Part shown: one piece after another, positions 28,853 through 59,195 of the stretch
Layout of the letters: each line of letters begins with the position of its first letter
How positions within the stretch are numbered: position 1 is the first letter of the stretch
NCBI GenBank assembly: GCA_027972325.1
Contig: JAPMOS010000023.1
Coordinates: 134,001-198,000, forward strand
Direction: 5' to 3'
DNA: 64,000 bases
Source: Paratrimastix pyriformis
Taxonomy: Eukaryota > Preaxostyla > Paratrimastigidae
Notes under the pieces: generated by a model
What the model saw: the letters and a program-made list of their open reading frames with translations, nothing else
What the model was told of the DNA's origin: nothing
The model's database searches: none
Program-made: the position numbers and the translations under genes

Positions 28853-30440
28853 TTGTGGCATCATTTTTTCCACGACGAATCATCAGGGAATGTCCTTTCG
28901 GCGGCCTTTCTCTGTCCCTGCAATGTTCATATCCCCACCCTGTTGAAGGCTTGTCAAGTGACTGTATCTCTTCATCATTCGTTACAATACTCGTGGAGCA
29001 TTCAAAGGTCTGCTGGGATCGCAACTTCCGACTCAAAACTCCTGCCATCAGTTCCCACTTGGTGCCGTCTGCGCAGCCTTTTCCGGCCGATTTTTTTGTC
29101 TACCCACCAACTGACCAACAATCAGCTCAACAAATGGCTTATCTCGAAACTTCATCCGGATTCGACTTGCCCCGATGTGCGCCCATCCGATTTCGGGTTT
29201 ATCCCCTGGTGGCTCCCTCCGACGACCGGTTCATCTTTTCGATTGCTACTCATCACAGCTGCGTGGACATCGCCAGTTTTATGGTTGTACTCGAGTCCGT
29301 AACCCGGGAATACTGCGCCGCCGGAGATCGAGAGCACCCTCTGCCTCTGCCGCTGGCTCCCGTGGGTCAGAGCGGCTGTCCGGCGCCTCCCTCGAGTTCG
29401 CATCCCACTTGCCAATGCGGTTCCTACCAGGAGTTTCTCAATGAATATGGCGAGAGCAGCTTCTCCGAGGGGGATGCCCGCTTTTGGGCGGCCCACGTCC
29501 GTGACGTCCCAAGGACTCTGCCCCTGCCGCACAGCAGTGCGTATCTGGCGACACCCCAGGACCCTGTCGCCCCTGCCTACGTCCGGCTACAGTGGTCCGA
29601 GGGCCTGGCCAGCTGGGTGGACGCCCTCTGCGCCCAGGTCGGGACGAGCCCCTTCGCGGCGCTGCTCGGGTGCTGGCAGCTGTTCCTGCATCGGCTCGTG
29701 GACCGTCCCGCCCTTGCCGTCTGGTACGCGGCCTCGCTGCGCGACCGGGCGCGCTTCCGGCACACGGTGGGATACTTCGCCAACGTGCTGCCGGCCATCT
29801 CGCGGCTCGCAGGGGCGACCACCTTCCGGCAGTACCTGGCCGCCATGCGGTCGGTCCACCAGGCCGCCAGCCAGCACAAGCGGTACCCGTCCACGCGCAT
29901 CATGGGCCTCTGCGCACCTGAGGAACACCCGGGCCTGGTGGGCATGTTTGGGCTGCACGAGGTGGCCCCCGAGCACGAGGCCTGGCTCGGGCCGGTCCTG
30001 ATGGCCCCCGGGTGGCGATGCGGCTTCCTCGGGGTCCCCTGTGAGGGCGTCCCCCTGTCCGCGTGCAACGTGCCTCCGGGGTTGTCTCTCCTGCTTGGCC
30101 ACGTGCGGCAGGTCTGGTCGCTGTGGCGGCATCAACGAAGAATCTTTCACACCCAACCACATGACACGCCCCCTGCCGCCCTGCCTTCTTCCTCTCTCAT
30201 CGTCTCATCGCACACCATCCCCTCGTCCATTTCCACCAGTCGCGGACCTACATGGGTGTCCTCCACCACGCGGGCCTGGGCTTGCCCGCCGCCACGGCCG
30301 CACAGTGGGCCGGCCTCTTCACGTCCTACGCGGAGCGGCTGCTGCAGCGACCCGACTCGCCCGAGGCCTTCGACTTGCTGCTTCCCGTCCCGCATCCGCT
30401 GCAGCCCCGCCCCACAAGCGACCAGCAGCGCTTCTTCGGC
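28853..30440 (+). other. Condensation (C) domain
   Basis: The active-site motif HHxxxD is intact as HHSCVD at 29251-29268, preceded by SGFDLPRCAPIRFRVYPL (the FDL..P.R region). VGYFANVLPAISRL further on fits the C-domain core near the latch. N-terminally, NVHIPTLLKAC and HHSLQYSW match the start of a C domain but sit in another frame. One extra T in the T7 run near 29092 would join them; a GTCTGC intron offers an alternative. Intron 30112-30239 leads into the C-terminal helices (TSYAERLLQRP). A C domain in first position suggests an acyl or upstream-loaded donor, as in fungal hybrid synthetases of the TAS1 type. Confidence 0.85.
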
Positions 30441-33400
30441 CAGGGCCCCACCGCGCCCGTTCTCCTTACCGAGTGCCCCCGACGCAGGCTGCTGGCTCAC
30501 TGCACCCAGACGCCCATCGCAGATGCCCTCTGGATGGCCGAGGGCGGCGGCTTGATGATGACCTACGCCGACCTGGCCATGGTGGCTTGCTACCTGCATA
30601 GCCAGCTGCCCGCCCTGGCCCGCTGCGCGCCGGGGGCAAGGGTGGGGCTCTGCTTCTCGCCTGGGGACGCCTACCACGCGGCCCTCCTGTGCGCCCTGTG
30701 GCTCTGGGGCCTGGCCGCCGTGCCCCTGGACCCAGCCGCCCCCACGGCCCGCCTGGCGGCCCTCTGTCAGCTGGCTCACCCTGGTCGGTTCGCTGGCCTG
30801 TCATGAGCTGCGTGGTGCCACCACGCAATTCATCATCTTCTCGCTGCCCTGCCTTCCAGCACTAGTCCTGACGCGGCCCGCCACTGTCAGCCGGCTTGAG
30901 GCCGCCGCCGAAGCCGCTCTTGGTTGCGGGGTGTCAGAGGCCCAAACGGACGGGTGGGTGGCGATTGGCCTCGAGGCCGACCTGGTCGCCCGGGCCCGCA
31001 GCTGGGCCGCCGCCAGTCCCGACACGGCCGCGGCCGTCCGGGCGGCGTTGGACGAGCTTCGTGTCCCAGGTCCGTCACTTTTCCAGTTCGCGTGGGTTGG
31101 AGAAGCGTGCTCCCATCCCACCGGAGGACCAACTGCACGAAGCGCACGAACTGCCCGAACTGCACGAACTGCACCGTCAATCGCGCCAACACCTCATTTT
31201 TCCGTTCCGTCCCTCCATCGCGTCTGCCCCAGACGATCTGGCCGCGACGGCGTACGTCCTGTTCACCAGCGGGACGACGGGGCAGCCCAAGGGGGTCCCC
31301 GTCACGGCCGGGGCCCTAGCCAACCTCATCGAGGCATACCGGGCGCCCCTCGGCGACCGCCCCCTGGCCCGCTGCGCCCTGTGGACGGCACCAACTTTCG
31401 ACGTGTCCGTGGCGCCTCGCATCCACAGGGTCCTTGTCCACACCCGGAATTCGCAAACCGCACAACTGAACTCTGTTGGCCTGGATGGCGTGGGGTGGTG
31501 TGGGGTGGCCCGGATGGCGTGGGTGGGCGGGTGGGCTGGCAGGTCCATGGCTGAGATCGGGTTGGCCCTGTGCAGCCGGGTGCCCTGCTGCCTGTACGTC
31601 TGCCCGGCTGAGGCCAGGATGGACCCCGCGGCCCTGCTGGCCTTCATGAGCCGGTCCGCCGCGATACCCCCCCCCGTCCCACAACCCCACATCCCCACAT
31701 CCCACCCCCCACAACCCACCCCGTCCACCAATCTCGTCCACCCATCCTCGCTCTTCATGCACTTGTTGCGCCACTGTTTCCTCCCACCCCATCGCCATCA
31801 ACCTGCACCGCCCCCCTTCCTGCTTGTCGCCGTCCCGTCCCGCCCCATTCATCCTGCACCTCCGCGTTGTATGCCTAGCCATGCCATCGAGGCGGCCTGG
31901 GTGCCGCCCTTCCTGGTCGATGGCCTTCTGACCCTCCTCACAGCCGCTATCACCCCGGCGCCATCCCCGGCCGCCATGTCCCCGGCGGTTATCCCCATGG
32001 CGGCCCCGGATGGTGCTGACGGGGTGGAGCCGCTCGACCTGCAGACCCTCCGCGACCTGCGGGCCGCCCTGGGGGCCCCGTCCTGCTGCATGGGTACGGC
32101 CCCACCGGTCCGCCTGCCTTCCCCCCCCCCCCCCCCCGGCCCTGCTCGTTGTCTTTGAACCGGCACACCATCGGCTTCGTTTCCTGATTCCCCCAAAAAC
32201 AAAATGGCTTCGCCACACCCCCTCCATCCTGTCTCCCATCCCCCCTCCTGCAGAAACGACCGTCTTCTCGACCTTGTTCGAGGTGCCTCCCTTCCTGCCA
32301 GCCGGGGTGCCCCGCCAGCGGTGCCCCATCGGGGCGCCCATCCGCAACACGGCCGTGGCCCTGCTCCAGCCGGGCCGCCCCTTCCTGGCCGGGGACGACG
32401 GCCGGCCCCGGTGCAACCACGTCCCGCTCGGCTGCCCCGGCGAGATCTGGATCGGCGGTCCGTCGGCCACCCCACCGCCTTCCTTCATCTGGGGGGGGGG
32501 GGGGGGGGGGGGGGGATAAAAAAGATGGGACCTGACCCAGAATTGGGATCTGGCTCAAAACCAGCCGGTTAAGGGTTGCTGTTATCAGTCGGGTCAACGT
32601 GAGCCCCAGCGGTGGAAGCGAATATCATCATCTGTGTCTCCACGTATCTCCGGTCGCTCCACGGCTCCACCCACCCAGGGCTCGGTGTCTCCCCAGGGTA
32701 CCTCCGACCCCCCGGCCAGGCCGATGATGGCCCGGCCCCAAGCCCCATAGCCTCTTCGACTGGCTGCGATGCCACAAACATTGGGCCGGGCCCCTTCTAC
32801 GCGGCCATCCCCGAGCCGTTCCCGGGCCCGTCCGGGGGCTGGGGCTGGTACCGGACGGGCGACCTGGCCCACTGGGACTCTGCCGGCCAGCTTGTCTTCA
32901 TCGCCCGGGCCGACCGGCAGGCCAAGGTGGCCGGGATCCGCCTGGCCCCCGAGGAGGTCGAGCGCGCCCTGCTCGCCCACCCCCGCGTCGCCCAGGCCCA
33001 CGTGGCGGCCGTCCCGAACCCCGACCCGGACCCTGCCAACCCCGCGGGGAAGACGCTGTTGGTGGCGCTGGTCCGCTGGACGGGGCCGCTGGCCGACTTC
33101 CGCCCGGTGGACCTGGCGGCCTTTGTGGAGGCCCGGCTGGGGCCGCGCATGGTCCCGGGCCGGTTCGTGGCCTGCACGGACATGGCCCAGGCGCCGGTAA
33201 CGGCTCACGGTCCGCCGCCACTCCCACCTTCCCCACGCTCATCCTCCCATCTCCCATGATCCTCCCTTCCCACTCCTCCCCATGATCATCCCTCCATCAA
33301 CCTCACGAACCCCCGGCAGGGAAATACGATTGGACGCGGATCCTGGCCGCATCGTCGCCCTGTCTTCCCGCAGCAGCCAGCGGCCCCTCGCCACCCCCGC

Positions 33401-36400
33401 CCCTGCCCCCGCCCTTCCAATCGGCCCCCGAAGAGGCCGTCATCTACGCGGCCCTGCGGGACATCCTGCCCCCGGGCCGCCTGCCTGCCCAGCCCGGCGG
33501 CCCGCTGGTCCAAGTGGGCTTCTTCCAGCTGGGGGCCACCAGCCTCGACCTGGTGCGTCTCTTCGAGCGGCTCGCTGGGGCCCGGCCCGAGTGGGCAGCC
33601 ATCCTACAGCCGGCCGACATGCTCCGCCACCCGTCCGTCGCCCGGCTGGCGACCCACCTGGCCGCGGCATCAACGGCTGCTGCTTCAACGAGTACAACAA
33701 GTGCAATCGCAACGTCAACCGCAGATGCCGGGTCAAGTGCCCCGATCGGACCATCTTCCGCGATCTCAGCGGCAGCAGCAGCACATATCGCCGCGACGCC
33801 TCAACTCCAGGTCACTTCGCCCCCGCCGCCGCTTGTTCCTGCCGCCGCCGCCCCGATCGCCATCATCGGACTGGCCCTGATGGCGCCTGGATGCCCGGAC
33901 CTCGACGCCTTCTGGCGCGCCATCGCCCAGCGGCGCGACTGCCTGGCGGGCAGCAGTGGGCCCCGGGGCAGCCTGGCCGGGGTGGACCGTTTCGACCCGG
34001 GCCCGTTCGGCCTCAGCCCGGCCGACGCAGCCTGCATGTGCTCCCAGCAGCGCCTCTTCCTGCAGGCATGTCGGGCCGCCTTCGAGGACGCCGGCTACCC
34101 GGGGCTGCCTGGGTCCCCCCGGGACGTGGGGCTCTACGTGGCCGGGGAGGAGTCCACCTACTTGCCGCCCCACTGGCGGCCCAACGGCAACCGGAGCCCC
34201 TTCGCCTTCCGGCTGACCAATGGCACATCGCGCGACGCCCTGGCCACCCGGACGGCCCATCTGCTTGACCTGCGCGGGCCCGCGGTGGCCGTGGGCTCCG
34301 CGTGTAGCGGCTCGCTGGTGGCCGTCCATCTGGCCTGCGCCGATCTGCGCGCCGGTGCATGCGGGATGGCCCTGGCGGGTGGGGTCTCCATCACCCTGCC
34401 TCAGCAGGCCCCCTTCGACCGAGTTGGGGCGCCCTACTCGCCCTCGGGCATCATCCGGCCCTTCGACAGGCGGCGGGACGGGGTCCTGCCCGCCAACGGG
34501 CTCGGCGTGGCCCTGCTCAAGCCACTGGGGGCCGCCCTCCGTGACAGGGATCATATTTACGCCCTGGTCGCGGGCAGCGCGGTCAACAATGACGGGGCCG
34601 CCAAGGCGGGATATACAGCGCCCTCGGCCGAGGGCCAGACCCGGGTCATCCAGCGGGCCATGAGCGGCGCGGGGTCCGTGGGGCAGAGTGGGATCCAAAG
34701 TGGAGGAACGGTGGTCGGCGTTGAGTATAGACGTTCATCATCATCATCAGCATCAGCATCAGCGCCAGCATCAGCATCATCCAATCATCATCACTACCTT
34801 CTCTAGGCTTGCGGACCCATCCCAAATTGGGTATCTGGAATGCCACGGGACGGCGACCACACTGGGCGACCCGATTGAAGTGCGCGCCGCGGCTGATGCC
34901 TACCTGTCCCTGGGTGGGCCGGCCCTCCGCGGGGCGGCCGCCACCCGGATCGGATCCGTTAAGGTCCCTCCGCCCAGCCATCTCCCCCCGGCCCAGGGCC
35001 ACCTCATCTGGGTGTTACCAACCACGTCCTCATGCGCAAACATCCAATCGGATAGGGCAATGTGGGGCACCTGAACACAGCCGCGGGGATCGCTGGCCTG
35101 GCCAAGGTGGCCCTGTGCCTGTGCGAGGGCCTCCTGCCGCCCTGCCCACCTCACACAGCGGCCCCCGACCCGGCCCTCCGCCTGGAGGACACGCCCTTCA
35201 TCCTCGGCGACATGGCTGCACAGCCCTGGCCTCTGCCCCCGACCGGGTGCCCGCCCCGCTACGGGGCCGTGTCGAGCTTCGGGATCGGAGGCACCAACGC
35301 GCATGCCGTGCTGCGCTCCCCACCACCGCCCCAACTCCCGCCCCAGTCATCGCCGCCAGGCGGGGAGTGCCTGATCTGCCTGGGGGGGAGCTCCACGACC
35401 CAGTGTCTGCGCCAGGCGGCCGACCTGCTGGCCTTCTTCGACCAGCCGGCCCCGCTGGGCGGTCTGCCCGCCCTGACCACTCTGGCCTTCACTCTGGCCC
35501 GTCGCCTGTCGGGCCACGAGTCCTGCCGCTGCGCCATCGGCGCAGCCACCATGGGCGCCCTCTGCACCCGGCTGGTCAGCCTCACCCCGCAGGCCGTCCG
35601 CTCGCCGCAGCCCCCGGTTCGGCACGACGAAGCGCTGGTTGTGGAAGTGGACCTCTCTGGGGCACCCCTGGCGGCGTCCCTCCCGGCCGGTCTCCAGTGC
35701 GTCGGGGATGGGCTGAAGCTGATCCGTGCAGCCCTCCACCCCGCCCAGCCCGTCATCCACCTGCAGGCGGCGGGTGACATGGCGTCGGCTCTGGCCGCCC
35801 TGCAGGCCATGGGGGCGCTCTCTCCGGCCCGGTGCAGTCTGGCCATGACTGGCGGCCCGGGGTCACTCCCAAGCATCGCTGCTGCTGAAATTGGCGCCTG
35901 GCTGCCTCTGTGGCGCCTCTCCATCGGGGACACCCCGTGTCCCGACCCGCCAACCCTCGCTGCCGCCCTGGCCGCCCTCCCCACTCCGGCGGGTGGGGCC
36001 CAACCTCCACATCTGGCCATCTCGGGCGGTGCGCACATCCCCCTGTGGGACCTCGAGGCTGCCTGCTGGCGCCCCCCGGCCCGCCCCCGCGTGGCGGAGG
36101 CCCTCTGGCTGGCCGGTTGGCCCCTCGCCGACCCGTGCTACGTCCTACCCGCCGACGCCCCGCTCCCCCCCGCCGTGACGCATCTGCCTGGAAGCCCCAT
36201 GCTGGGCCAGTCCTACTGGTACACTGATCTCCCTGCAGGCCAGTGGGAGTCCCTCGAGGCGATGTCTCGCGAGGATGACCGGGTCAGGGCGGCCGAGGCA
36301 CCGCCGCCCATCACCACCACCACGGCCCTGCTGCCCTGCCCGGCCGAGATCGCCCTCTCGCTGGCCGAGGCGCCCTGGCTCCGGGGTCACGCCCTCTGCC

Positions 36401-39000
36401 GACCCGCCGACAACGGGGGCCCCGTGCCCCTGGTCCCGTTCGGGGTGGCCCTGGGCATCTTCGTTCTGGCGGCGCACCACCTCCCGCGGCCCTCCGCCGA
36501 CCGGCCCACGTCCCTGGCCCTGACCGGTCTCACGGTGCGCCGGCCCCTGTTTCTGCAGCCCCAGACCCCAGAAGTCCGCCTGCGACTGGCCGCGCCGTCC
36601 TCCGCCCCCTCTCCCGCCTCCACCTCATCAGCAGCATCATCAGCATTGGCATCGATGACCTGGGAGATCACGGCCGATGGGGCGCCCTGGGCCAGGGCGG
36701 GCTTGGAGGCCGCACCGGACGGTGTGCCCGCCTTCCCGCCCGGCCTCCTGACGGATGATGTCGACGGGGAGCCCTGGCACGCGCTCGCCCTCCCATCGCC
36801 ACCCGCCCCTTCGTCCGGGGTCGGCGGCCCAGCAGCGGGGAGCATCATCTCAGCCTCCGGGGCCTTCGAGACCCTGCGTTCGTGTGCCGTCCGCCAATCC
36901 TGTCCCGGCGGCGCTGATGGCGGTCAGGCGGAACAAGTCCTCGTTTTCCGGGCCGCGGTGCGGGAGTGCCACACGGCAGGCCGCCTCGCCCGGCTGGGGG
37001 CCCTTGCGGCCTGTCTGGACGGGGTCTTCCAAGCCGTCCGAATCGCAGCGACCGAGGTGGCGGGACCGGCAGGGGCGGATTCGGGGGGACTGGGCCTGGC
37101 CCGGCTCGACCGCGTGGTGATTCTGGACGCCACCGGGACGGCGGTGGATCGGCTGGTCAGTGGCGGGGACGGGGACGGGTCGCTTACCCTGGACGTCCTG
37201 GGGCTGATCGATGCCGACGTGATGCCTGACAGCAGCGGTGGCAGCGGTGGCAGCGGTGGCAGCGGTGGCAGCAGCGGTGGCAGCAGCGGTGGCAGCAGCG
37301 GCAGCTCGTTGTTCCTGCCCGTCCAGCGGCTCGCCTGTCGGGTCTGGGTCAGGGCCGCCGGGCGGGATGTGCTCTTCCTTGAGGGGATCACCCGGGCCCG
37401 GGTCCCGGCTCCGCCCCCCGGCCATGCTGCTGCCGTCTCGTCTCATGTCCCGGAGGAGAAGGATCATCACGCGAGAGCGGGCGCAGACAGCACCGTCCCT
37501 GCCCCGCCTGGTCGGCCGCCGCAGAAGCAAGACGGGTCAGAGGTGCTGCCCCCTCCGTCCCTCCCAGTGGCTGCAGCCCCGGCCGAATCAGTGCCCCCCG
37601 ACATCACCACCAGGTCCACACCGTCGGCCTCGACCCTCACCGCCAGCTCGCAGGGGGGACGAGCTCCGCCGGTGTGTGAGTGCGTCCTGCTCCCGGCTCC
37701 CTTGCCGCCCCTCAGCCAGCAGGCCAGCCGGGCGCCCCAGGCCTTCACGCCAGTCATCATTGCCGAGGAAGGTCCGTTTGTGCCACCACGCGCACGCGCA
37801 CGCGCACGCTCCATTCGTCTCGCAAAGGCGCGGCATGCTCTCTCCTCGCATCTCACGAATTCTCATTCCCGCCTCCTCACCCCGCCCGCTGACGTCCTGC
37901 ATCTGTCTTTCCCTCGTGCGCCCCAGGGTGCCCCTTGCCCCCGGCCTTCGCCCACCTGGCGGCCATCGCGCCCGCCCAGCCGCACCCCCCCGTCCTGCCT
38001 TCCTTCCTCGCCACCCATGGGCCGCTGCCTCCCGGGTCGACGCTGCTCCTGCTGGCCCCGCCCAGCCCCTCCCGCACGGGCCTCCTGGACGCTCTGACCG
38101 CCTTCGGGCCCCTCCACGGGCGCCTCGTGGCTGGCCGGTGCCGCCTGCTGCTGGTCACCTGTGAGGGCGCCCAGCCCGACCCGGAGGCCTGCGGGCGGGC
38201 GCACGCGCTCTGGGCGGCCCTCCGAACCCTGTCGCTGGAGCTGCCCGCCCCGATGCGCGCCGGCTGCCGGGCCGTGGACGTGGCCCCGGACGAGCGGCCC
38301 GCCCTGGTGGCCCACTGGGTCCAAGCCGAGCTGCGGGACATGGCGATGGCGGCTATCCCCCCGGAGGACCCCACCCGCCCGGCCCCGGACCCGGACACAC
38401 CCGCCCTGGTCGCTTACCGGAGCAGTTTGCGCCACTGCCCCCGGCTGGTGCCGTTGCCCCTGTTCGCCACCCCGCCGACCCCCTTTGTGCCCTCGGGGCG
38501 CTCGTACCTCGTCACCGGGGCCAGCGGGGGCATCGGCACGCATCTGGTGCGCTGGCTGCTCGACCGGGGGGCCGCCCGCGTGGTGGCGACGCACTGCTCG
38601 TCCACTTCCCCGGCACCCCCCGACCCGACGGATGGGCGGGTGGTCTGGCTGAGGCACAGCTTCACCGGCGCCGCGCCCCTGCAATGGGCGGAGGCCGAGT
38701 GGGGGCCTCTGGCGGGGATCTTCCACCTGGCCGGGGCCAACCCCGACGGGACCCTGCCCAGGATGCGGCGGGCTGATGTCGAGCGCGCCTGGGAGCCCAA
38801 GGCGGACGGGACTCGGTCCGTGCCGACGCAGGCCCAGAGGTTGATGATGCGGGCAGATGCGCCGTGAGAGCAACAGGCATGTTTGCGAAGACTCTTTCTT
38901 CTCTGCACGGCTGGCTCTTCCCAACTCCCTTCCTCTTGGCAAGGGTCAAAACAAAAATACCAAAAACAATCCAACGCGCGACGGACGCTCACTGCCCACC

Positions 39001-39031
<31 letters not shown>

Positions 39032-43828: not shown

Positions 43829-43829
43829 G

Positions 43830-44399: not shown

Positions 44400-44402
44400 T
44401 CA

Positions 44403-45563: not shown

Positions 45564-45639
45564 CACCGCAAAAATGCCACGCCGCGGTGGCTGTCCCTCG
45601 TGGGGTTTGCCGATTGTTTCAGGCAAGAATTTTTGAATT

Positions 45640-46300
45640 GACCACGATTCCAGTGCACGATGATCAAACCTTCCTCGCAGATTCTCTCATCCACGCCGTT
45701 TCAGATGTTATTGTATTTTCACGGGTGGTACGACCTGATTTTCATTATCATAACTCTGATTCTCTACATTTATAAAGGTACTACTGCTTGTGTCCTTTTT
45801 TTTCTGCAACTTCCCCTGTGACCTAGCTGTATCACTACCTTATCCTGCTCTCCTTGCCCTGGAACTCTGTTTCTTGCTCATCGCAGCCCCACTTCTCGAG
45901 TGGGCTCGTCTTTACCTTGGTCCGTTTTGAACAATCCAGCTTCCCTTGTTGACTTCTTCAGGGACCCGAGGGAATCTCACTGAGCAAGTCCTTCCACTTA
46001 TTTTTTTCCTCGTCCTTTGTGTGCCCACGATCATGGGCCACGTCTATTTTCTGGCCTGGCAGGCCTACGTGTCTGGGCATTGTTTCTTTGATTTTCCCGC
46101 ACATCAAGCTGTAGTCTTCAAATAGAAATCCCGATGAACGCCATTTCACTGCTCTTCCTGCTTGCCGAGCTGATCTTTGCCATCATCTACATTATTGTCT
46201 TCCAGCGGAGCAATCTCTAAACATCTGGTTTCATCCCATCGTGTGTGTAGATTTTACTCAAAAACGATGGTCCCCGAACGCTGTATTGCCTGCGAAGAGA
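45640..46300. other. Intergenic, AT-richer
   Basis: 5' flank of the Npr2-like gene and 3' flank of the next minus-strand gene. T-rich, no repeats, no gene recognised. Confidence 0.5.
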
Positions 46301-46309
46301 AGGAGAAGA

Positions 46310-48138
46310 TTATGGCCTGCCCACCCCAGCAGCTGCGGTGGCCGTTGCAACGTTCGAGCTTCGGTCAATCTCCGCTGCAACCAGAATCGCGCCCACCATG
46401 CACCCAGACATGCCGCTCCCGCCAAGGCCCCACTGACCCGCTACCCAGAGGTGCGGGATGGCCGTCACGGGAGGGAACCGGCGGAACAGCCCATGGGCGG
46501 GCGTGTTGGCAGGGCCGTAGATCGCACCCAGAGGTGAACCCGTGTAGCGGGAGTATGTGCGATCGGTGGCCAATTCGACACACACCAATAGGCGCTTGAG
46601 GATGCCCCGCTGGAAAGGTCCCTCGCGCGGGTGGAGCGAGAGCAGACAGCGCTCCAGGCAGGCCAACATGCCCTCCAAACGGCGGGCCTTCCATTGGTGA
46701 TACGCCTCCTTGGTCAAGTCGTAGTTGCGCGAGGAAACTGGGCGAATAAAGCAACAACTCAAGACTCGGCTCGGCGCATCTGAGGCCGGAATGACATTAG
46801 TCACGAAGAGCGATGGTGGATGGTTATCGAGCACATCCTCGGGGTTGGCCTGCTCGGCACCCAGCAACTCGTCGAGAGCACGCTGAAAGGCGCGAGACAT
46901 TGACCGGGGATCAGAGAGCCCTGGACAGACCCTGTGTTCCTCGGAATTGTCGAAAGAAGGTTGGAACCAAGTTGAACGGGCAGTCAGTGGCGCCAGAAGA
47001 GTTGCTGTTTGTGGAGTATTGGCGAGCCCCACGTACAGCGAATCGCAAGTTGGGGAGAGCTCCATTTTCTCCAGATCGAGGGGGGGAGCGCCCTATGGGG
47101 AATTGATGAGATCGGGCGAAGACGAATGGGTGGGACTGACTTTCGGAGAGAGTTGCCGCAGGCCGCCAGGAACCATCTGCGCGAGAATTGGCAATGCGCA
47201 CGCTGAAACGACAACATCGGCCCGCAACCGGGTCCCGTTGGCCAGCTCCACCCCTCGTGCAACCTCCATGCCCTGATCGTTGGCCTCCAAGAGAATGCGA
47301 GCCACCTCGCCCTTCAAAATCACCTGGCCGCCGTGTTCACCGATGACCCGAGAATACTCGCCCAGAAAGCTGCAACACCACGGACGATGAACGCGGGACA
47401 AACAGTCGTGTCCAGACCTCTCCACCGTGACCCCTGGGCGGAGGACGAACATTCCTTGCTCCAAGGTTTTCCAGAGAATCGCCCAGTTCATCACGGACAT
47501 GTCACTGGGCTGTTCTCCCAAAAATCCCCAGAGCCCCGTCAGAACCAGCCGCATCTTGGAGTCCATACCGTGAGGGAAGTGGCGGTCAAGAAGCTGTTGA
47601 AGCGTCATCCGACTGTATCCTCTGCGCCAAAACGGGGTCGCAAAAAGTTGGGAGCACAACGAACAGACTCAGGGTCGCGGAGGATGTCCGCCATGGCCGC
47701 CTGCATCCCCCGTTCCATCAGGGCATCCTTGATATGCATGACCCACGACGCAATGTGGTCCAGGTCGTTCAGATAGGCCCGAATTCTTGGGGCATCCTCG
47801 GGAAACATGCTTTGGAGACGAGCTGCCATGGTCAGGACATTTGGCCCGCTTTCAAATTTGAATCCTTCACAGCACCACATGCCCAGATTTGGGGCTGGCA
47901 TGAGGTGGCGCATCAGCCGTCCGAGCATGTTTTCCCCTGTTGGTCGGTCGGGAAGTGCCAACAAATGAAAGGAGGCATCAAAGTCAACCCCAGCACGACT
48001 AAAATAACTCTGCATGCCACCGGCACGAGAATGCTTCTCACAAACGGTTACAGTCCATCCACGTAACGCGAGTTCACCAGCTGTATGTAGTCCACCAATT
48101 CCAGAACCAATAACGATTGCTGATTTAGTAGGTTGCAT
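46310..48138 (-). CDS. CrtISO/phytoene-desaturase-type FAD oxidoreductase, copy 1
   Basis: Five exons (48138-47669, 47612-47418, 47369-47141, 47068-46931, 46883-46310), joined in phase with donors GTCTGT, GTCTGG, GTCAGT and GTCTGT. MQPTKSAIVIGSGIGGLHTA is the N-terminal FAD site (GxGxxG), followed by EKHSRAGGMQSYFSRAG. VELANGTRLRADVVVSAC and the C-terminal LWVAGQWGLGGSGMSGCMVG (FAD-binding end) complete the fold. The family includes carotenoid isomerases, desaturases and retinol saturases. No substrate can be read from the sequence. The introns are only 48-72 nt. It is paralogous along its full length to the plus-strand gene at 52165-54493, but has one intron fewer in the first third and a less GC-rich sequence. 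Confidence 0.85.
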
Positions 48139-48358
48139 TCGACGAATGGGAAGAGCGAATTTTCATTTCCGGAAGGTCGCATCGTCCCCGGGCTCGATTT
48201 GCTCATCCCCAACAGTTAGCGGTAAGTCGTTTCGACTCTGCTGTCATTGGCACTGGCCGACGAGCCACCTCAACGCACGCCACGCAGTTCTGCATCTCTG
48301 ACAGCAAGATCGCCACGCAGTCTGTCTCCCGATCATCACCGCCAACCCACCATCATTA
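48139..48358. promoter_or_regulatory. Divergent promoter region
   Basis: 220 bp separate the ATGs of the minus-strand flavoprotein gene (48138) and the plus-strand proline-rich gene (48359). It must contain both promoters. No recognisable core motif was found by eye. Confidence 0.4.
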
Positions 48359-51300: not shown

Positions 51301-51952
51301 CACCGTGGTCGACAGCCCCCAACTGGCCGGCACGGCCACGCCCCGCACGCCCCGCACGCCCTCGCCCAGCGCCGCCGCCGGCCGCTCGTCCGCCATGCGC
51401 CGGAGCGGCAGCGGGCTGGTGCGCGGGGGCGGGTACACCCTGGTGGGGTTCCCCGGGGGCCAGACCTCCCCCGTGGGGATCGCCTCGGGCCGGATCCCCG
51501 TCGAGATTGTTGAGCGATGGGGGGCGGTCGGCCACACGGTCAGCCCCCGGCTGCGCCGGTCGCCCTCCCGGGCCATGACGGCCCCCCGGCCCGGCCGCCG
51601 GGGGCATGTCGACGAGCGGCTGCAGGGGCGCCGCATCGGCAGGCCCAAGACGAGCACCCCCAACAAGGAGCAGCCCCCCGCCCCGCAGGATCCGGCGAGC
51701 GCCTTGCAGGCAGACCTGAAGCCCGAGGACCTGAAGCCCGAGGACGATGCATTCACGCCCGCGGACGCCCCCCAGCAGCAGCAGCAGGGCGACGACCAAG
51801 GAGCGGGGATGACGGTGATAGGTGGCGAGGCCGCCGACAGGAGTCGTGACAATGAGCCCGCGGAGAGCGGCGCCGATGCTCAGAGCAGCCTGGGGGATAG
51901 CGACGATGTGGCTCCACAAGCCAGCCCCATGCCCACTCCTCGGCTCGGCTGA
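48359..51952 (+). CDS. Long proline-rich, largely disordered protein
   Basis: ATG 48359 starts MVVRSADFSDVTHKFLVGGR. About 900 residues after removal of two introns: 49327-49880 (donor GTCCGC after HQQR, acceptor CTGCAG, satellite-filled) and about 50994-51153 (donor GTCCGC after IQEY, acceptor CCTGCAG). The rest is dominated by Pro/Ala/Ser with short conserved-looking islands: LPLAEFTKAINAAREQL, MPVVEYLEHTLAQQGAAPID, AIRRVKFQPP (a VKF RVxF-like motif), MPLPAYRYPFAHGIAPRGTL and ESMVFKNAWAPLATVV. The C-terminus is acidic and Gln-rich. No known domain is recognised. A scaffold or regulatory role is conceivable but not shown. Confidence 0.65.
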   Translation: MVVRSADFSDVTHKFLVGGRYNSGRVLDTECPTRDQVIMRTSLSPRRGKNVFVQGHMEIPVMPRSPMHFSDPFEILHRALPSIAGPPGDNPSAEEPFPGGVPHIRASFSPRRMSQLSLPLAEFTKAINAAREQLAPSSPHHHPAAPPAPPPPPSAPAPPPTPTPLVSPRPPAVAPSPRRQRPHPSPRTAPMVPRLPLPPSGPADVSSPSGSLLSNPSLAVPSAAATPPSSLAIPPPSLESSGATASTPGAADSLATPPHPPTRPRPHGPPTSPRVALPLGGVVVEGSQAMPVVEYLEHTLAQQGAAPIDRMVFPLMLLHQQRRSARRRRADAAVTATTSYTSQIVRCRHQASPASDHSIAIIIQSSSSSHHHPVIIIQPSSSSSSSSNHHHHPVIIIIQSSSSSSHHRHHHHHQHQHHHHQHHHHPVIIQSSSSHHPVIIQSSSSHHPVIIQSSSSHHPVIIQSSSSHHPVIIQSSSSHHPVIIQSSSSHHPVIIQSSLVCISSPCRQRDDPGGQRLLSAASPTLQFDGPLPPIAFVAPPPTPPAIPSARPTDPATPRPTSRRPPPHPHGMVVRVPRASELQAEMTVDAASLEAPPPTLALSQSQQDRPPSASPAASRPSSALGDMPLPAAPPPMPEAGMDVAMTPGRSTSPPRVSSATPPPLVARPGSALSTAFPSPPSPTHVEPTWGMWAAQAPLPPPLEDSPMAIRRVKFQPPQVGTPARGQASHPATMPDAPPIPTPPPPPYGGPHPAPGMAASPTLLFTARAPRIHTSAPSPVPSPPAPPPSPSPPPPLAHRPPRTPHAHMPLPAYRYPFAHGIAPRGTLDDAVPPGMGSDARPTAVGLGSIPPCLERETYGRLGCIAGGSDDPEVIEGIQEYGPPSPATHTATPTPTPHTQGTSTTAVITKSQPQIDSPHFAGPHMDITHPSPPAGMEAIRNAPLASRSLSRRHALSVAHASLLTALPFHPKESMVFKNAWAPLATVVDSPQLAGTATPRTPRTPSPSAAAGRSSAMRRSGSGLVRGGGYTLVGFPGGQTSPVGIASGRIPVEIVERWGAVGHTVSPRLRRSPSRAMTAPRPGRRGHVDERLQGRRIGRPKTSTPNKEQPPAPQDPASALQADLKPEDLKPEDDAFTPADAPQQQQQGDDQGAGMTVIGGEAADRSRDNEPAESGADAQSSLGDSDDVAPQASPMPTPRLG
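49440..49858 (+). repeat. (CAGTCATCATC)n minisatellite and CAT tract in an intron
   Basis: CAT-type triplets (49440-49630) pass into about 20 near-perfect 11-bp units. The unit is the reverse complement of the 7.4 kb array. It lies entirely within the intron 49327-49880. Confidence 0.95.
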
Positions 51953-52164
51953 TCTGTGTCCTCAGGCATGCGTGCTTCTTTTTTGGACCCTCCTCCGAGT
52001 TATTCGGAGTTTCGCACGTGTATTTACTTCTCTGCCCTTCATCGTCCCGGGGCAACATGGTTTCTCCCTTCCATATGCTCGCCCACCACCAGGTGCTTGC
52101 AAAATTGGTGGGCCGTGTCATGGCTCTGTTGCCCCTGTTATATTCACCTCAACCGCTGCCAACG

Positions 52165-54493
52165 ATGAGTAACAACAAGACCGCAATCGTGATCGGTTCT
52201 GGGTTTGGTGGTCTGAACACTGCTGGTGAGCTGGCCCTGCGTGGATGGCGCGTTACTGTGCTGGAGAAGCATTCCCGCGAAGGTGGAATGCAAAGTTATT
52301 TTTCTCGTGCCGGCGTCGATTTCGATGCGTCGTTTCATTTCCTCTATCTCCCGGATCGCCCCACCCCCACGAACATTGTGGGGAGGCTTGTCAAGCATTT
52401 GATGCCAATTTCCAACATGATGACCTGGCGGGCCGAAGGTTTCTTGTTTTCATTCAACTCTTTGAAATGTACTTATGCAAATTTCCGAGAATAGACTTCT
52501 CCTTTGAGAGCGGCCCAAACCTGGGCAGCCTCGTGTCCGGACTGATTGCCCGGTTCCCCGATCAGGAGGCCGCCATCCGCGCCTATACCGCGGATCTTGA
52601 CAAGATTGCCAACCACTCCATGGAGGTGAAGACCATTTTGGTGGAAAAAGGCATGCAAGCTGCCCTGGGAGCCATGCAGAGCGACCCCGAGGCACAGGCC
52701 ATGGGCCAGCTCTCCGCCCAGCAGCTCCTGGATAAGCACTTCCCCGGGGGGATTGACCCCAGGTTGCTCATGGTCCTCATGGGTCTGTCGTCGTCACCAC
52801 CATCGTCATCATCACACATTCTCATCCATCTGGACGGACTACCGTATCCGACCCGCGCAGGCTTCCGGCGGTTCCTCGGCGAGCAGCCGGGTGAGCTGTC
52901 GCTGGTCAGCTGGGCCATCCTGTGGAAGTCCCTCGAGCACGGCGCCTGGATGTGCCGCCCAGGCTCGGGCGTCAAGCAGTCTGCGTGCGCATCCCATCCC
53001 CTGGGCCGGCACGACCACCTCACCGTCATCAGCACCCAATATAACCCCTCGTCACCTCCCCTCCCCCCTCCTCCCTCCACCTACTCTTTCCCACAGGCTG
53101 CTTGCCGAGTACCTCAAGCTGATCACCGAGGCGGGCGGCCAGGTGCGGCTGAACAGCGAGGTGAAGCGGATCCTGGTGGAGGCGACCCCCCAGGGCGTCG
53201 AGGTGGCCCGGGGAGTCGAGCTGGCCGACGGGACCCAGCTGCGGGCCGACGTGGTCGTCTCGGCCTGCGCCCTGCCCATCCTGGGGGCCATGGTCCCCGG
53301 GGGCATGCCCAAGCTCTTCGCGCCCAAGGTCCGCCATCCCCCCGCCCCTCCTTGCTGGTGGCCCAGCATGAACGGGACTCGGTTTCCATGCTCTGCTGCT
53401 CCTCTGATTTCCCAGCCCGCCCCCGAGGGCGCCGCCCCGGCTCAGGCCCCGGCCCCCAGGGGCCCCATGCGGCTCTCCCCCGCGTGCGACGCGCTCTACG
53501 TGGCCCTGCGGAACACCCCCCGCACGGCCGAGCTGCTGGCGCCCTTCCGGAGCCGCTCGATCTGGTTCAACTCGGCCGCGGACCTCGCTCAGGCCCAGAC
53601 ACACCTGGTCCGCAGGACCGCCACCCACCCACCCACCCACCACCACCCGGTCCTTTTTCGGCCGGAATGTTTGTTGTGTCTTCACGTAAAGGGAGATGTC
53701 ACCGGGAAATGGGGGGTAAAAATATGTGAGGGGTCGAGACGGCACTGCAACCGTGCGCACCGACCCCCCCCCCCCCCCGCCTTTCTCACGGTTCCCCACC
53801 TGGTGCCGGGTTGGATCGTCCTTGCCCAGGATGCGCTCAACGCGGAGCTGGGCGCCGAGGGGCGCGACCCGGAGGAAGTCCTGGACCGGCACCCGATGGG
53901 CCTCTTCGCCACCCTCACGGCCCCGCCCCCCGGCACCGGTCCGTCCGCCAGCCGCTGCCCGCAGTCCCCGCCCCCGCGTCCTCCCCCCTCCCCCACACCT
54001 CACCGCCACGCCCGCTCGCCGGCTTTGTGTCTGGCCTGCCCGACTAGATCGTGCCTACGTGCTGAGCTGCAGCTTCCACCACCCGGTCAGCCCGGCCAAC
54101 TTCCAGCTGTCGCCCGCCGCCTACGCGGCCTGGAAGCAGCGCCGCCTGGCGGGCATGCTGGCCGGCCTGGAGCGCTGCCTGGGCTCGCTGCACCCGGGCG
54201 GGGCCTTCGGGCGGGGCTTCCTGCACGAGATGACCCTGTGCGCTGAGCTGGCCACCGACCGGACCCTGCACCGGTACACGGGGTCCCCCCTTGGCTGCAT
54301 CTACGGCCCGGCCAACATCCCAGCCCAGTCGATCTTCTCCCGGCCCCCCGTCACCGCCATCCCGGGCCTGTGGCTGGCCGGCCAGTGGGCCCTGGGCGGC
54401 CCGGGCATGACCGGGTGCATGGTGGGCGCCGGCATGATCGCGGCCGAGATCGATCGGGCCGCCGCCGCCCCCGCGCCGGTCGCCGCCAATTAG
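52165..54493 (+). CDS. CrtISO/phytoene-desaturase-type FAD oxidoreductase, copy 2
   Basis: Seven exons: 52165-52438, 52495-52782, 52861-52978, 53097-53328, 53416-53607, 53830-53938, 54048-54493. Donors are GTTTCT, GTCTGT, GTCTGC, GTCCGC, GTCCGC and GTCCGT; all phases agree. MSNNKTAIVIGSGFGGLNTA is the FAD motif. DFSFESGPN, GFRRFLGEQPGELSLVSWAI, VELADGTQLRADVVVSACAL and LWLAGQWALGGPGMTGCMVG match copy 1 residue for residue in long runs. Compared with copy 1, exon GC content rises sharply after the second exon, and the introns are longer and G/C-rich (53608-53829 has a C14 run). Same family and same uncertainty about substrate. Confidence 0.88.
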
Positions 54494-54642
54494 GCCTGAT
54501 TTGGGCACGAGCGTATTTGGGGTGTGTAAAAAGATCTTTTTTCGGACTCGTTATCTCGCTCTCCCTCCCTCCCCCCCCTTGTTCACCGGACAACTTTCTA
54601 TTTTTTTCCGAACTCCCGAAAATGTTCGATTCCGAGTGTCAT

Positions 54643-56213
54643 TCAAATCTTCACCGGGAAAGCCGCCGTAGCCGCTTCGATGGCCTGCGCGAGATCTGCG
54701 ATGATCTCGTCCGGGTTCTCCAGGCCCACTGAGATTCGGATCAGACTCCTGCTCCTCCAATGAGCTCTACTAGCCTAGGAGGATGCCAAACCACAGACGG
54801 AGTGAGCCCTTGCTGCCGCATCAGATCAAGCGGAACGCCGCAATGCGTCATGGAGGCGGGGTGTTCGATCAGGGTGTCGACACCGCCCAGGGAGACAGCG
54901 ACAACAGCCAGGTGGACATTCTCGAGGAGGGCCTTGGCAGCATCGTAGCCTGCCTTCATCGTGAAGGAGAATGTTGAGCCAAATCTGCACAAAGTCCGAG
55001 AGATGATGGGAAGGGATCAATCGGCGGGATGCGGGGCAGGTCAAGACCCGCTCATCTGGCGCACGGCCACCTGGTGATTGGGGAAGTCGTCGAACACTGG
55101 ATGGAGAACCTGCTCAACGGCCGGGTGAGAGCGCAGGAAACGGGCAACAGCGATGGCGTTCTTGTTCAATTGCTCCATGCGGACGGGCAGGGTCCGTATG
55201 CCTCTGGGGGAGAGGTTGGGAGCCGCGGGGTGATCCAGGGGAGCCGGACCTCATCACCAAAAAAGCGTCAAGGGGCGAGAGAATCCCCCCTGTGTCCTTC
55301 CGCCAGGTTCGTACCGTGTTCACATGCTCTTCTTTCGCACAGGTCACAACTCCACCGACTACGACGACGGAAGATCGTCCGATTGACCATGTGAAGGGGG
55401 GGACAGACTCACATCGCCGTGACCGGCAATATACTGCAGGGACGTGGTCGGGGAGTGAGGATGGGCCAGGTGAGGCGGAGGCGAATGCTGGGAGGAGCAA
55501 GAGACCTTTGTGAGCGAATGCAGAGATAGGTCTGCCCCAAGGGCAAGGGGGCGCTGGAAGAATGGAGTCGCAAAGGTCGCATCAACGGCAACGAGCGCGC
55601 CAACTTCATGGGCTTTGGCAGAAACGGCTGCAATGTCTGTGATCTTGTTCGTTGGGTTTGCAGGAGATTCCAAATAAAGGAGCTTGGGGGGCGGAGAGGT
55701 GTGCAGGACTCGATCGATTTCCGACAGATTCCCCGAATCCACGATCAACACCGTGATCCCCCAGCGCGTGAGATACTTCTGTGCGAGGGAGATTGATGGA
55801 CCATACCTGCGGGCGGCGGCAAATAATCAGTGGACTTGTCGTTCTGGTGGTTCGACGGACATAGTATCGCCCAGAACCACAGAATCGCCAGCGCGGAGAA
55901 AGGGCATCAAACAACCCGTGACCGCTGCCATTCCACTGGAAAAGCCAACCGAACCGACCCCTTCATCGAGGTTGGCCATGAGACGTTCAAAGGCCTGGAC
56001 GGTCGGATTGCCGATCCGCGAGTAAATGTGTCCCTCGGCGCGACCAGCGAACAGGTCAGCACCGTGGTCGGGACTGTCAAACATGAAGGTCGAAGTCTGG
56101 AAAATGGGCCAAACATGGGAATTCATGGGCTTTTCGTGCCCATCCGCGTGGAGACAACGAGTCTCAAACGAAGACGTTCCGGGAGCATGCTCGGTCATTG
56201 CGTGCTCGGCCAT
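54643..56213 (-). CDS. Methionine gamma-lyase-like PLP enzyme, copy 1
   Basis: Cys/Met-metabolism PLP family (methionine gamma-lyase, cystathionine lyase or synthase). It starts MAEHAMTEHAPGTSSFETRC. Exons join in phase through donors GTCCGT, GTCTCT, GTCTGT, GTCCGG and GTCTTG, plus a 48-nt intron (GTCTGT) near the 3' end. FAGRAEGHIYSRIGNPTVQA, GLGDTM joined to YGPS (phosphate and cofactor loop), LYLESPANPT, and LHSLTK|YIAGHGDVIGG, where the PLP lysine is the last residue before an intron. FSFTMKAGYDAAKALL, VSLGGVDTLIEHPASMTH and SLIRISVGLENPDEII complete the fold. An S-x-x-TK context and GHGDV favour gamma-lyase over synthase. It lies head-to-tail with copy 2. Confidence 0.9.
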
Positions 56214-56480
56214 TGCAGGAATGTCGAGTCGGGCAGGTTCCGGCCATAGTATATCCCCTTGGGTCCTTCCTGTTGTCCTCTCGGATTTGAAAAATGGCCA
56301 GCTCCGAACTCTGTGTGTGCGCTGGAACCCAGCGCCCTTCACTTCCAGTCCAATCTCCCCTCACCACGGTTGTGGGGTGGTTGGGGTTAGGGGTGGTTGT
56401 CAAAATGCGTGTTAGCCGTGTTGGAGTCGCTCTAAAAGGGCCTGGCAAGGCTGGACAGCCTATCCATCGGATTACAGTAC

Positions 56481-57130
56481 AAGGCCAGTGGAGCGGGGCC
56501 CTCCTCGAGTCCCCGGTGGTGCAGCGCCTGGTCCAGGTCGGTCCCTCTCCGTCCTTCCCCGCCCGCCCGCCCGCCCGCCCGCCCGCCCGCCCCCCCCCCC
56601 CCCCCCCCCCCTCATCCCCGTCCTCATCCCCGTCCTCATCCCCGTCCTCATCCCCGTCCTCATCCCCGTCCTCATCCCCGTCCTCATCCCCGTCCTCATC
56701 CCCGTCCTCATCCCCGTCCTCACCGCTTGAGCGCAGTACTGGTATCGCACGGGGGCGCTCCAGTCCATCCGCGAGGGTCCCGGGGCACAGGCGGCCGCGG
56801 CGCTGCTCCAAGTGGCGACCGGAAAGGCGCCTCCTCCTGCCCCGGAGGTCCCCTCGGCCCCGCCCAGCTTCAAGGACACCTCGGAGCTGGCCGAGGAGGG
56901 CGGCGAAAGCGACGAAGGGGACGAGGGCGACGAAGAATATGCCGGCAGTCGCGGCCGGGGCCCCGCAGAGTCACCGTTCGCTCGGGGGAAAAAACTGCAG
57001 ACTTGGGGGAGGATCATCCAGCTTGTATCATCATTGCGCCTGAAGACGAGGACGGCCCCTGATTCACCTTCTCCTACATTGCCTCTGCCCCTGCTTCCGT
57101 CCCGAAGATCTGACCATTTTTCTTCAAGAC
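56481..57130 (+). pseudogene. Inverted duplicate of the 3' end of the 60 kb gene
   Basis: 56481-56973 is the reverse complement of about 60298-59797 (over 95% identical by eye), including one intron with the GGGGATGAGGAC repeat. It encodes QWSGALLESPVVQRLVQ, then after the GCGCAG acceptor YWYRTGALQSIREGPGAQAA and SFKDTSELAEEGGESDEGDE in one open frame. The source copy is 8 bp shorter at this place. Homology stops after GCAGAGTCACC, beyond which the frame runs through unrelated sequence to a stop near 57130. With no 5' exons it is a gene fragment, though its frame is the better preserved of the two. Confidence 0.75.
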
Positions 57131-57621
57131 GTCCAAGATGAAACCCCCGCAGCCGACACTGATCCCCGGGAAAGACTGCAGGGGGACGGCGAATCGAGGC
57201 GATTGTTATTCTCGTCGAGGAAAAAAGCCAAAGAGAAAACGGTCCTTGTGATACAACACCAACCCCACGCCTGATGAAATACATGTCCAAGCGGGGGGCG
57301 GAAGTGAAAAAAAACTGAAGAAAAAAAGACGCGCCGAGCATGAGAAGAGCGTTGAAGGTTCTTCTCCCGAGCACCACTCCGATGGCTGACCGGTTGGTCC
57401 CCTCCTTTGCCCATCGCTTGACCCAAAGACAGCGCACCAGCCCCGCAGCAAGCTGCATCTGGTCACCGAATGGTCCGGCGGATGGCACGGTTAGGAAGGA
57501 GAGGCGCGGAACGGGAGTGGCCGGTCCGTCCACGGGAAGGAAGAGGGGGAGTATGGAGCCGGAGGGGAGGGGGAGACGCCGTCTCCCCCACCCCCTCCTG
57601 CGCTCTCAAACCTCAACTCGT

Positions 57622-59195
57622 TCACTTCCGCTGGTCGACGAGGTCGAGGGCCCGGTGCAGGTCGGCAATGAGCTCGTCAGAGTTCTCCAGGCCGACCGAG
57701 ATGCGGACGAGGCTCCGGGTGAGGCCCGCAGGGAGCATATCCTCGGGGACGGCCGCGTGGGTCATGGAGGCGGGGTGCTCAATCAGGGTGTCGACACCGC
57801 CCAGGGAGACGGCGACAACGGCCAGGTGGACATTCTCGAGGAGGGCCTTGGCGGCCTCATAGGACTTCATCTCGAACGAGAAGGTGGAGCCAAAGCTGTT
57901 GGGGCAAAAAAAAAAAAAAAGGCGTGAGCCGCTGAGCCACCAGGACCGGGGGCAGACAGACCCGCTCATCTGGCGGACGGCAATGTCGTGGTTGGGGAAG
58001 TCCTCGAAGACGGGGTGGTTGACCTTCACAATGGCGGGATGCGACCGCAGGAACCGGGCGACGGCGAGGCCGTTCTTGTTGAGCTGCTCCATCCGGATGG
58101 GCAGGGTGCGCAGGCCGCGCATGACCAGGAAGGCGTCGTGGGGGGACATGATGGCGCCAATGTCCTTGCGCCAGGCCATCACCGCGCTGACTTGCTCCTT
58201 CGTCTTGGCCGAGACAACTCCACCAACAACATCGCCGTGGCCCGCAATGTACTAAGAGACATGATTGTTGGGATGTGATGATGCGTGGATGCAACAAACC
58301 TTAGTGACACTGTGGAGAACAAGATCCGCACCAAGAGACAGGCAGCGTTGGAAGTAAGGGGTCACGAAGGTGCAGTCAACACCAACCAGAGCGCCGTGCC
58401 GGTGAGCGATCTCAGAAATGGCGGCGATGTCAGAGATCTTGCAAGTGGGGTTGGCGGGAGACTCGAGGTAAACGTACTTGGCCTCGGGGTGCTCAGCAAA
58501 GGCGCGCTCGACATTCTCAGCGACAGAGGTGTCGACGGCAACTGGAGATCGATTTTACATGAATTTGGACAGCGAGCGGAGAAATTGACAGACCAGAGTT
58601 GATTCCAAAGCGAGGGTAGAAGTGAGTGAAGAGGGACACAGTGCACCCATAAAGAGTATCACCAATGAGGATTGTGTCACCAGCCTTCAGGAACGGAGTT
58701 GTGGCAGCAGAAACCGCACCCATCCCACTGCCGAAAGCAACTGAGCCGGCAGCCTCTTCAATGTTGGCCATGATCCGCTCGAACGCTTGGACAGTGGGGT
58801 TTCTATAAATGTGCAAACCCAAAAAATCAAGGCAATGATTGATTTCACGAGACAGACGCAATCCGAGAATAGATGTGGCCCTCGGCGCGACCAGCGAACA
58901 GGTCAGCGCCTTGGTCGGGGCTGTCGAACATGAAGGTGGAGGTCTGGAAAATGGGCCAAACATGGGAATTCATGGGCTTGTTGTGGCCATCAGCATGCAG
59001 GCACCGGGTCTCGAAGGAGAAGGAGTCAGGCAGTGCAGCCTCAGTTGCCTGGCACTGGCAGGGGGCGGCAACCGGTGAAGGATGGCCATGAGTGGGCGTC
59101 GCCATGGGGCCCATCCGGCAGGGGGCTTCGGGCTTGGAGCTACCGCAGCATGGGGAGCCAGGGTGGCTGCCAGAGATTTGAACTTGACCCATCAT
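57622..59195 (-). CDS. Methionine gamma-lyase-like PLP enzyme, copy 2
   Basis: It starts MMGQVQISGSHPGSPCCGSS, with a longer N-terminus than copy 1. Exons end with donors GTCTGT (58863), GTCTGT (about 58600), GTTTGT after the PLP lysine, and GTCTGT after AVRQMSG. HSVTK|YIAGHGDVVGGVVSAK places the PLP lysine at an exon end, exactly as in copy 1. FGSTFSFEMKSYEAAKALL follows a T13 run and CAACAG. SLVRISVGLENSDELIADL ends the protein. It is closely related to copy 1, so a tandem duplication is likely, with only about 60-70% identity in the variable parts. It is bracketed by the two arms of an inverted duplication. Confidence 0.9.

Follow-up and report, generated by a model that had tools for sequence, protein, structure and literature searches.

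The window analysed here is a 64,000-nucleotide stretch of the genome of Paratrimastix pyriformis (Preaxostyla, Metamonada; contig JAPMOS010000023.1, positions 134,001 to 198,000). It carries two methionine gamma-lyase genes (P0001 and P0003), genes for a flavin adenine dinucleotide (FAD)-binding protein (P0241) and its phytoene dehydrogenase-like paralogue (P0242), and a ketosynthase, and the introns of all of them begin with donors that depart from GTRAGT. Taken with the small nuclear RNA (snRNA) genes of the whole genome, these donors make it very probable that P. pyriformis possesses a major (U2-type) spliceosome in which the 5' splice-site reader of U1 has been recoded, with donors that match it.

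P. pyriformis is a free-living anaerobic flagellate for which the genome paper (PMC10703272) gives an assembly of 56,627,582 bases in 633 scaffolds with a GC content of 60.94%, 10,815 predicted genes, an estimated BUSCO completeness of 76.3%, and an annotation produced by Augustus retrained with curated models and RNA-seq intron hints. The genome searched in this work comprised 56,060,509 bases in 495 contigs.

Introns of the window

Introns were located by spliced protein-to-DNA alignment in which the intron start was free, a constant score favoured GT and AG, and donor positions +3 to +6 had a weight of zero. The exact references were the deposited P. pyriformis proteins P0001, P0003, P0241 and P0242 from the window, together with P0121 (GcvP1). 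When realigned to the DNA the four window proteins were identical at 450/450, 435/435, 552/552 and 475/475 residues, respectively. The introns are listed below gene by gene; they were placed by exact protein realignment unless homology is named, and a slash marks the position of the intron in a protein motif or junction.

58803..58857, minus strand, intron of methionine gamma-lyase gene P0001, donor GTCTGT
58542..58593, minus strand, intron of P0001, donor GTCTGT
58252..58299, minus strand, intron of P0001 at SVTK/YIAGHGD, donor GTTTGT
57896..57961, minus strand, intron of P0001, donor GTCTGT
55807..55860, minus strand, intron of methionine gamma-lyase paralogue P0003, donor GTCCGT
55434..55505, minus strand, intron of the P0003 gene at SLTK/YIAGHGD, donor GTCTCT, by homology to E. 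coli MetB
55359..55408, minus strand, intron of P0003, donor GTCTGT
55204..55249, minus strand, intron of P0003, donor GTCCGG
54985..55047, minus strand, intron of P0003, donor GTCTTG
54749..54798, minus strand, intron of P0003, donor GTCTGT
52439..52494, plus strand, intron of FAD-binding protein gene P0241, donor GTTTCT
52783..52860, plus strand, intron of P0241, donor GTCTGT
52979..53096, plus strand, intron of P0241, donor GTCTGC
53329..53415, plus strand, intron of P0241, donor GTCCGC
53608..53829, plus strand, intron of P0241, donor GTCCGC
53939..54047, plus strand, intron of P0241, donor GTCCGT
47622..47668, minus strand, intron of phytoene dehydrogenase-like paralogue P0242, donor GTCTGT
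47370..47417, minus strand, intron of P0242, donor GTCTGG
47093..47140, minus strand, intron of P0242, donor GTCAGT
46883..46930, minus strand, intron of P0242, donor GTCTGT
34964..35055, plus strand, intron of the ketosynthase at VK/GNVGH, donor GTCCCT, by homology to E. coli FabF only

The 19 introns of the four exactly realigned genes have C (17/19) or T (2/19) at +3 and G at +5 (17/19). GTCTGT occurs eight times, GTCCGT and GTCCGC twice each, and GTTTGT, GTCCGG, GTCTTG, GTTTCT, GTCTGC, GTCTGG and GTCAGT once each. The two introns placed by homology only, both of them without G at +5, lie at joins that the earlier note had proposed from conserved motifs, namely SLTK/YIAGHGD of a pyridoxal phosphate (PLP)-type enzyme and NVGH of the ketosynthase; homology to MetB and FabF leads to the same joins. 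The first of these (72 nucleotides, in frame and stop-free) is kept in the deposited P0003 protein (VSCSSQHSPPPHLAHPHSPTTSLQ). Its sequence is missing from MetB, its position matches an intron that is spliced in P0001, and the P0003 annotation apparently retains it by mistake. The expectation that standard gene finders would miss such introns holds at most for untrained programs: Augustus was retrained for the published annotation (PMC10703272), and the four deposited window proteins contain these junctions, with the one apparent retention just described.

Donor consensus

For genes elsewhere in the genome the homology-only references were E. coli DnaK, IleS and ValS, with two P. pyriformis HSP70s serving for the others. 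In all, 133 introns were proposed, 57 homology-only introns with a flank score <15 were dropped, and 76 were kept by source or flank (27 from exact references and 49 by homology with good flanks on both sides). The GT-AG introns, 60 of the 76 (26 exact and 34 homology-only), come from 14 of the 10,815 predicted genes and form the set used below. Alignment scores were too low to place introns in five CCT genes (L070-L074, against E. coli GroEL) and in locus L064 (against IleS and ValS), which were omitted; likewise, EntF, FabD and FabG alignments were too weak in the nonribosomal peptide synthetase/polyketide synthase (NRPS/PKS) stretch at 28-42 kb of the window, of which only the ketosynthase was used.

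The GcvP1 protein P0121 matches the spliced genome at 460/462 residues over seven GT-AG introns. The printed primers with which the P1 protein EU086490 was amplified from complementary DNA (cDNA) match the ends of P0121 (PMC3596361), and since P0121 has no contig and holds two residues missing from the assembly, it appears to be that cDNA-derived record. At intron 8 of this gene (L069) the two residues that the cDNA-type protein has in excess correspond to a C-run of the assembly, an assembly or strain difference. Evidence of expression comes solely from P0121, as a protein of cDNA type, and from the RNA-seq-guided annotation that was deposited.

Position +3 is C in 49 donors, T in nine, and A and G in one each; +4 is T in 27, C in 23, G in seven and A in three; +5 is G in 55; and +6 is T in 27, C in 18, G in 13 and A in two. 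The last exon position, -1, is G in 44. The unusual consensus GTC[C/T]G[T/C] described in the earlier note is borne out over these 14 genes: GTYNG begins 54/60 donors but only 13.2% of the 2,724 GTs within these gene spans that are not donors (binomial p ~6e-41), and GTCNG 46/60 against 7.8%. GTRAGT, said there to be nearly absent, begins none of the 60. The further statement that +3 is C and +5 is G almost everywhere needs an amendment at +3, where T is a regular alternative; +4 is loosely T or C.

After correction for background, the most enriched letters at positions -3 to +6 spell AAG/GTCTGT, T being the sole letter significantly enriched at +4; significant enrichment is lacking for every letter from +7 to +9. 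This consensus was recovered in 892/1,000 bootstraps over introns and 914/1,000 over genes; the exact-reference set gives AAG/GTCTGT and the homology-only set AAG/GTCCGT. With the flank filter off, 89 of the 133 introns are GT-AG, of which 71 are GTYNG. As a bare word AAGGTCYGY is only weakly enriched in the window (6 copies vs 2.1 expected, with 5/100 shuffles reaching 6). The branch-point word CTRAY is present in 8/60 introns vs 6.3 in shuffles, and CTCAC in 9/60 vs 3.8.

U1, U2 and U6 genes

A search with Rfam RF00003 revealed eight genomic U1 loci (L001-L008; E 3.7e-13 to 2.0e-10), all complete over model positions 1-166. A changed U1 5' end had been predicted from the donors, and at the DNA level the genes agree: 8/8 begin with AUACAGACCUUG, extended in all of them to ATACAGACCTTGCTTGG, rather than with the family consensus AUACUUACCUGG. 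This end is complementary to GTCTGT. The differences are U to A at nucleotide 5, U to G at nucleotide 6 and G to U at nucleotide 11. The literal conserved 5' sequence AUACUUACCUG is present in none of the eight, and the case for calling them U1 is built on their remaining sequence and on complementarity to the donors, not on this element. The body word GCGATCACACAGGCGCTG has eight exact copies in the genome, which are the same eight genes. Two matches to it with two mismatches are not U1 by Rfam, and neither ACAGACC nor ACTTACC lies nearby.

The flanks of the eight genes are visibly different, yet all possess TCCCATAA at -60/-61. The same element lies upstream of 8/8 U2 genes (-59 to -61) and of 3/4 U6 genes, the fourth having a one-letter variant; in U6 it stands at -83/-84 from an anchor inside the gene, which puts it about 67 nucleotides ahead of the point where the Rfam match begins. 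Because distinct flanks go together with an upstream element common to U2 and U6, the U1 genes look like live snRNA genes. We take the element, as found at L001-L020, to be reminiscent of plant snRNA promoters.

An Sm-type site precedes the 3' stem-loop, reading AUAAUGUUUGGU in seven genes and AGAAUGUUUGGU in L008 (consensus AUAAUUUgUGgU). Two canonical loops were not encountered: that of stem-loop I is GAUCACACAG, where the consensus has GAUCAaGAAG, and that of stem-loop II is closed by GAAA. The former is presumably the U1-70K loop and the latter the U1A loop, and since the one is altered and the other replaced by GAAA, the U1 particle may have been simplified as well as recoded. A U1 17-mer matched once in a viral collection and 11 times in a prokaryote collection, in no case a U1 at the Rfam gathering score, and these matches are ascribed to chance; the test is weak, because the U1 loci of P. 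pyriformis do not reach that score either.

The partners of U1 are canonical. U6 has the box ACAGAGA in 4/4 copies and U2 has GUAGUA in the 8/8 copies displayed, which, like the GT-AG ends of 60/76 introns, is as expected of introns of the U2 type. U12-type introns are read by U11 and U12 snRNAs and have an AT/GTATCCTT donor; no donor of the 60 begins with GTATCC, no search for U11 or U12 having been made.

Pairing of U1 and U6 with the donors

The consensus AAG/GTCTGT is the exact reverse complement of U1 nucleotides 3-11 at 9/9 positions, of which two (G1 and T2) were preset by choosing GT introns. The U1 RNA would start at the A that opens AUACAGACCUUG and pair with these donors in the cell as follows: C at +3 (or U, as a G.U wobble) with G6, U at +4 with A5, G at +5 with C4 and U at +6 with A3. 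In a fixed register the 60 donors form a mean of 6.2 Watson-Crick pairs with their own U1 vs 4.8 with a canonical one, and by donor the pair count favours the own U1 in 44, is tied in 13 and disfavours it in three. The mean energy in register is -6.0 kcal/mol for the own U1 vs -2.2 kcal/mol for the canonical (Wilcoxon p ~1e-9), the own U1 being favoured in 53/60 donors.

The sequences GAUACAGAGA of U6 and AUACAGACC of this U1 have AUACAGA in common. The first seven letters of U1 thus equal the U6 box and its flank, since canonical AUAC-UU-A needed just the change of UU to AG. Donor positions +3 to +6, CUGU, are the Watson-Crick complement of ACAG in U1 and in U6 alike. All four positions pair with ACAG in 17/60 donors (13 by Watson-Crick pairs alone) and at least three in 35/60; for canonical ACUU the figures are 0 and 2.

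We lean towards a further reading, in which two codes of donor reading have merged: U1 would have gained the ACAGA box of U6 by two substitutions, GUCUGU would be a perfect partner of U1 during recognition and of U6 during catalysis, and the spliceosome would be naturally recoded. If so, the U1 reader has lost its two pseudouridine positions and the donors of the genome have moved to match. Since U1 and U6 can read one word, no donor has to strike a balance between them. The order of events may have been that the donor was at first of the metamonad type, GUAUGU, that its U at +4 was then matched by A5 of U1, and that G6 of U1 and C/U at +3 of the donors changed together. Donors would already have been suited to U6 at +4 to +6, with U1 changing to read the same word.

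Several points weigh against a recoded U1. The end of U1 was read from DNA and the junctions from protein alignment, rather than from U1 RNA or RNA-seq. The eight loci score 50.8-60.2 bits, under the Rfam gathering cut-off of 69.5, and covariance-model scoring covered 41 of 992 first-look candidates. The body word has 52 further matches with 2-3 mismatches vs 15 for a reversed control; the 50 with three mismatches, one of them in L060, were not examined as U1 candidates. The exact pattern ATACTTACCTGGCNNNGG for a canonical start is absent from the genome, the pattern being narrow and exact. Among the kept introns the 16 that are not GT-AG (15 homology-only and GcvP1 intron 8) were omitted as presumed alignment errors. 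Position +4 is weak: 33/60 donors mismatch A5 of U1, and the most enriched letter there is C in the homology-only subset. The canonical U1 is energetically preferred by 7/60 donors; with nucleotide 6 as the sole change the energy already reaches -5.3 kcal/mol, which is most of the gain, and with nucleotide 5 as the sole change it stays at -2.2 kcal/mol. The match at nucleotide 11 adds little because A at -3 is common in other eukaryotes too. Ranked by raw energy among the 256 possible words at U1 nucleotides 3-6, ACAG is 11th (6th with the exact set), behind G-rich words, and canonical ACUU 90th (88th). We think that this ranking is confounded by GC content; since many donors have C at +4, raw energy would favour a U1 with G at nucleotide 5 (ACGG).

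Alternative explanations

The strongest alternative, which we nevertheless consider unlikely, makes U6 the driver: the donors would have drifted to CUGU as the complement of an invariant U6 ACAG, with U1 secondary or vestigial, having either followed the donors or ceased to matter as in lineages that have lost it. The earlier note had offered heavy reliance on U6 in place of a changed U1; the complementarity of CUGU to the unchanged U6 is on its side, and such reliance may exist. A zf-U1 profile search gave one match, which from its HERG..H spacing we read as WBP4/FBP21 and not U1C, and the U1-70K profile matched nothing, as was also true of every control in that search. Entamoeba is reported to be without U1 RNA (PMC13292270), U1 is given as undetected in Amoebophrya (PMC7789003), and U1 proteins are described as nearly absent from the metamonads studied in PMC6679479. 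Against U6 as the driver stand the retention of eight near-identical U1 copies with the upstream element of U2 and U6, and the extent of the donor preference to -3, -2 and -1, positions that face U1 nucleotides 11-9 and not the U6 box. A vestigial U1, moreover, need not gain an exact complement.

It is very improbable that the eight genes are variants or pseudogenes and that a working U1 with a canonical end was missed or is missing from the assembly. The BUSCO completeness, the covariance-model scores and the limited searches for further copies leave some room for one, but 8/8 copies agree, U2 and U6 have the same upstream element, those searches brought up no canonical copy, and the donors are a better fit to these eight than to a canonical end.

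That the GTYNG donors reflect GC bias, a single expanded transposable-intron family or an alignment artefact unlinked to U1 can be dismissed almost entirely: the genome is GC-rich and eight intron pairs share short stretches, but GTCNG far exceeds its background, no significant enrichment extends past +6, 14 genes contribute, and the exact-reference introns alone yield AAG/GTCTGT. An introner origin was also rejected on inspection of the stretches shared by the eight pairs among the 60 introns, which are all simple sequence (T-runs, CCACC- and CCCC-type).

Comparison with other organisms

The U1 of P. pyriformis shares with the canonical U1/GTRAGT system of animals, plants and fungi an Sm-type site, a 5' end that can pair with donors and, though below the gathering cut-off, a match to the covariance model, as well as GT-AG introns, U6 ACAGAGA and U2 GUAGUA; it differs at U1 nucleotides 5, 6 and 11, and the donors have a pyrimidine and not a purine at +3.

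In the Saccharomycotina, too, the 5' splice-site preference shifts between species, switching between A and U at +4. Parker et al. (2023; PMC10581693), who surveyed 240 genomes of yeasts and outgroups, found U1 in 227/230 Saccharomycotina and 9/10 outgroups and reported ACUUACC as invariant; A at U1 position 5 is named there as a change that might compensate for U at +4. That switch is linked there to METTL16, with U1 described as unchanged, whereas in P. pyriformis U1 itself has changed. The genome contains a partial METTL16-family match (PF05971, E 2.3e-16), and loss of METTL16 as the cause is disfavoured.

Giardia lamblia, another metamonad, shares the donor letters U+4 and G+5 and a U1 reported to be without a recognisable U1-70K site, but it has kept ACUUAC in U1, and its donors, [G/A/C]UAUGUU, tolerate a U-U mismatch at +4 (PMC3510501). 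In the oxymonad Streblomastix strix, a member of the Preaxostyla, U+4 and G+5 are likewise highly conserved, but so is A at +3 over the 21 introns described (PMC1501061), and the change at +3 is therefore not general to the Preaxostyla. Giardia and Streblomastix are both in keeping with the starting donor proposed above, and the change at +3 probably arose on the Paratrimastix side. Entamoeba and Amoebophrya have also departed from the standard partnership of U1 and donor (PMC13292270, PMC7789003), and Cyanidioschyzon is mentioned among lineages without detected U1 in a paper which reports that nucleomorph U1s retain the conserved motif (PMC6461891). In these three U1 is reported as lost or undetected, whereas in P. 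pyriformis it has been retained and, on the evidence above, recoded.

A changed U1 5' end in the Preaxostyla was not found reported in the open-licence PubMed Central (PMC) literature, subscription papers and preprints lying outside that scope. In PMC6679479 snRNA candidates of Monocercomonoides are given as "data not shown", and the P. pyriformis genome paper has "intron" twice, "splic" once and "snRNA" never in its main text (PMC10703272).

Implications

The 5' end of U1 has been treated as fixed, and the yeast survey sought a compensating change and found none (PMC10581693). In P. pyriformis a part of the splicing machinery long held to be invariant appears to have changed in step with the genes that it reads. 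Evolution appears to have run the classic compensatory-mutation experiment across a genome, with reader and signal changed together. The case makes testable the sharing of a donor between U1 and U6, the need for the two pseudouridines of U1, the change of a signal that is read at very many sites, and the tolerance of U1-contacting proteins for a different duplex. It also provides a practical gene-finding rule for P. pyriformis and perhaps for its relatives.

Other features of the window

The methionine gamma-lyase paralogues adjoin on the minus strand at 54.7-56.2 kb and 57.7-59.2 kb with 63% identity over part of the query, and the pair is probably a tandem duplication. At 28.8-35.3 kb on the plus strand lie condensation, AMP-binding and ketosynthase domains, a possible NRPS/PKS hybrid in a free-living anaerobic protist. 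A GC-rich tandem array with a unit near CCGTCCTCATCC occupies 56.56-56.73 kb.

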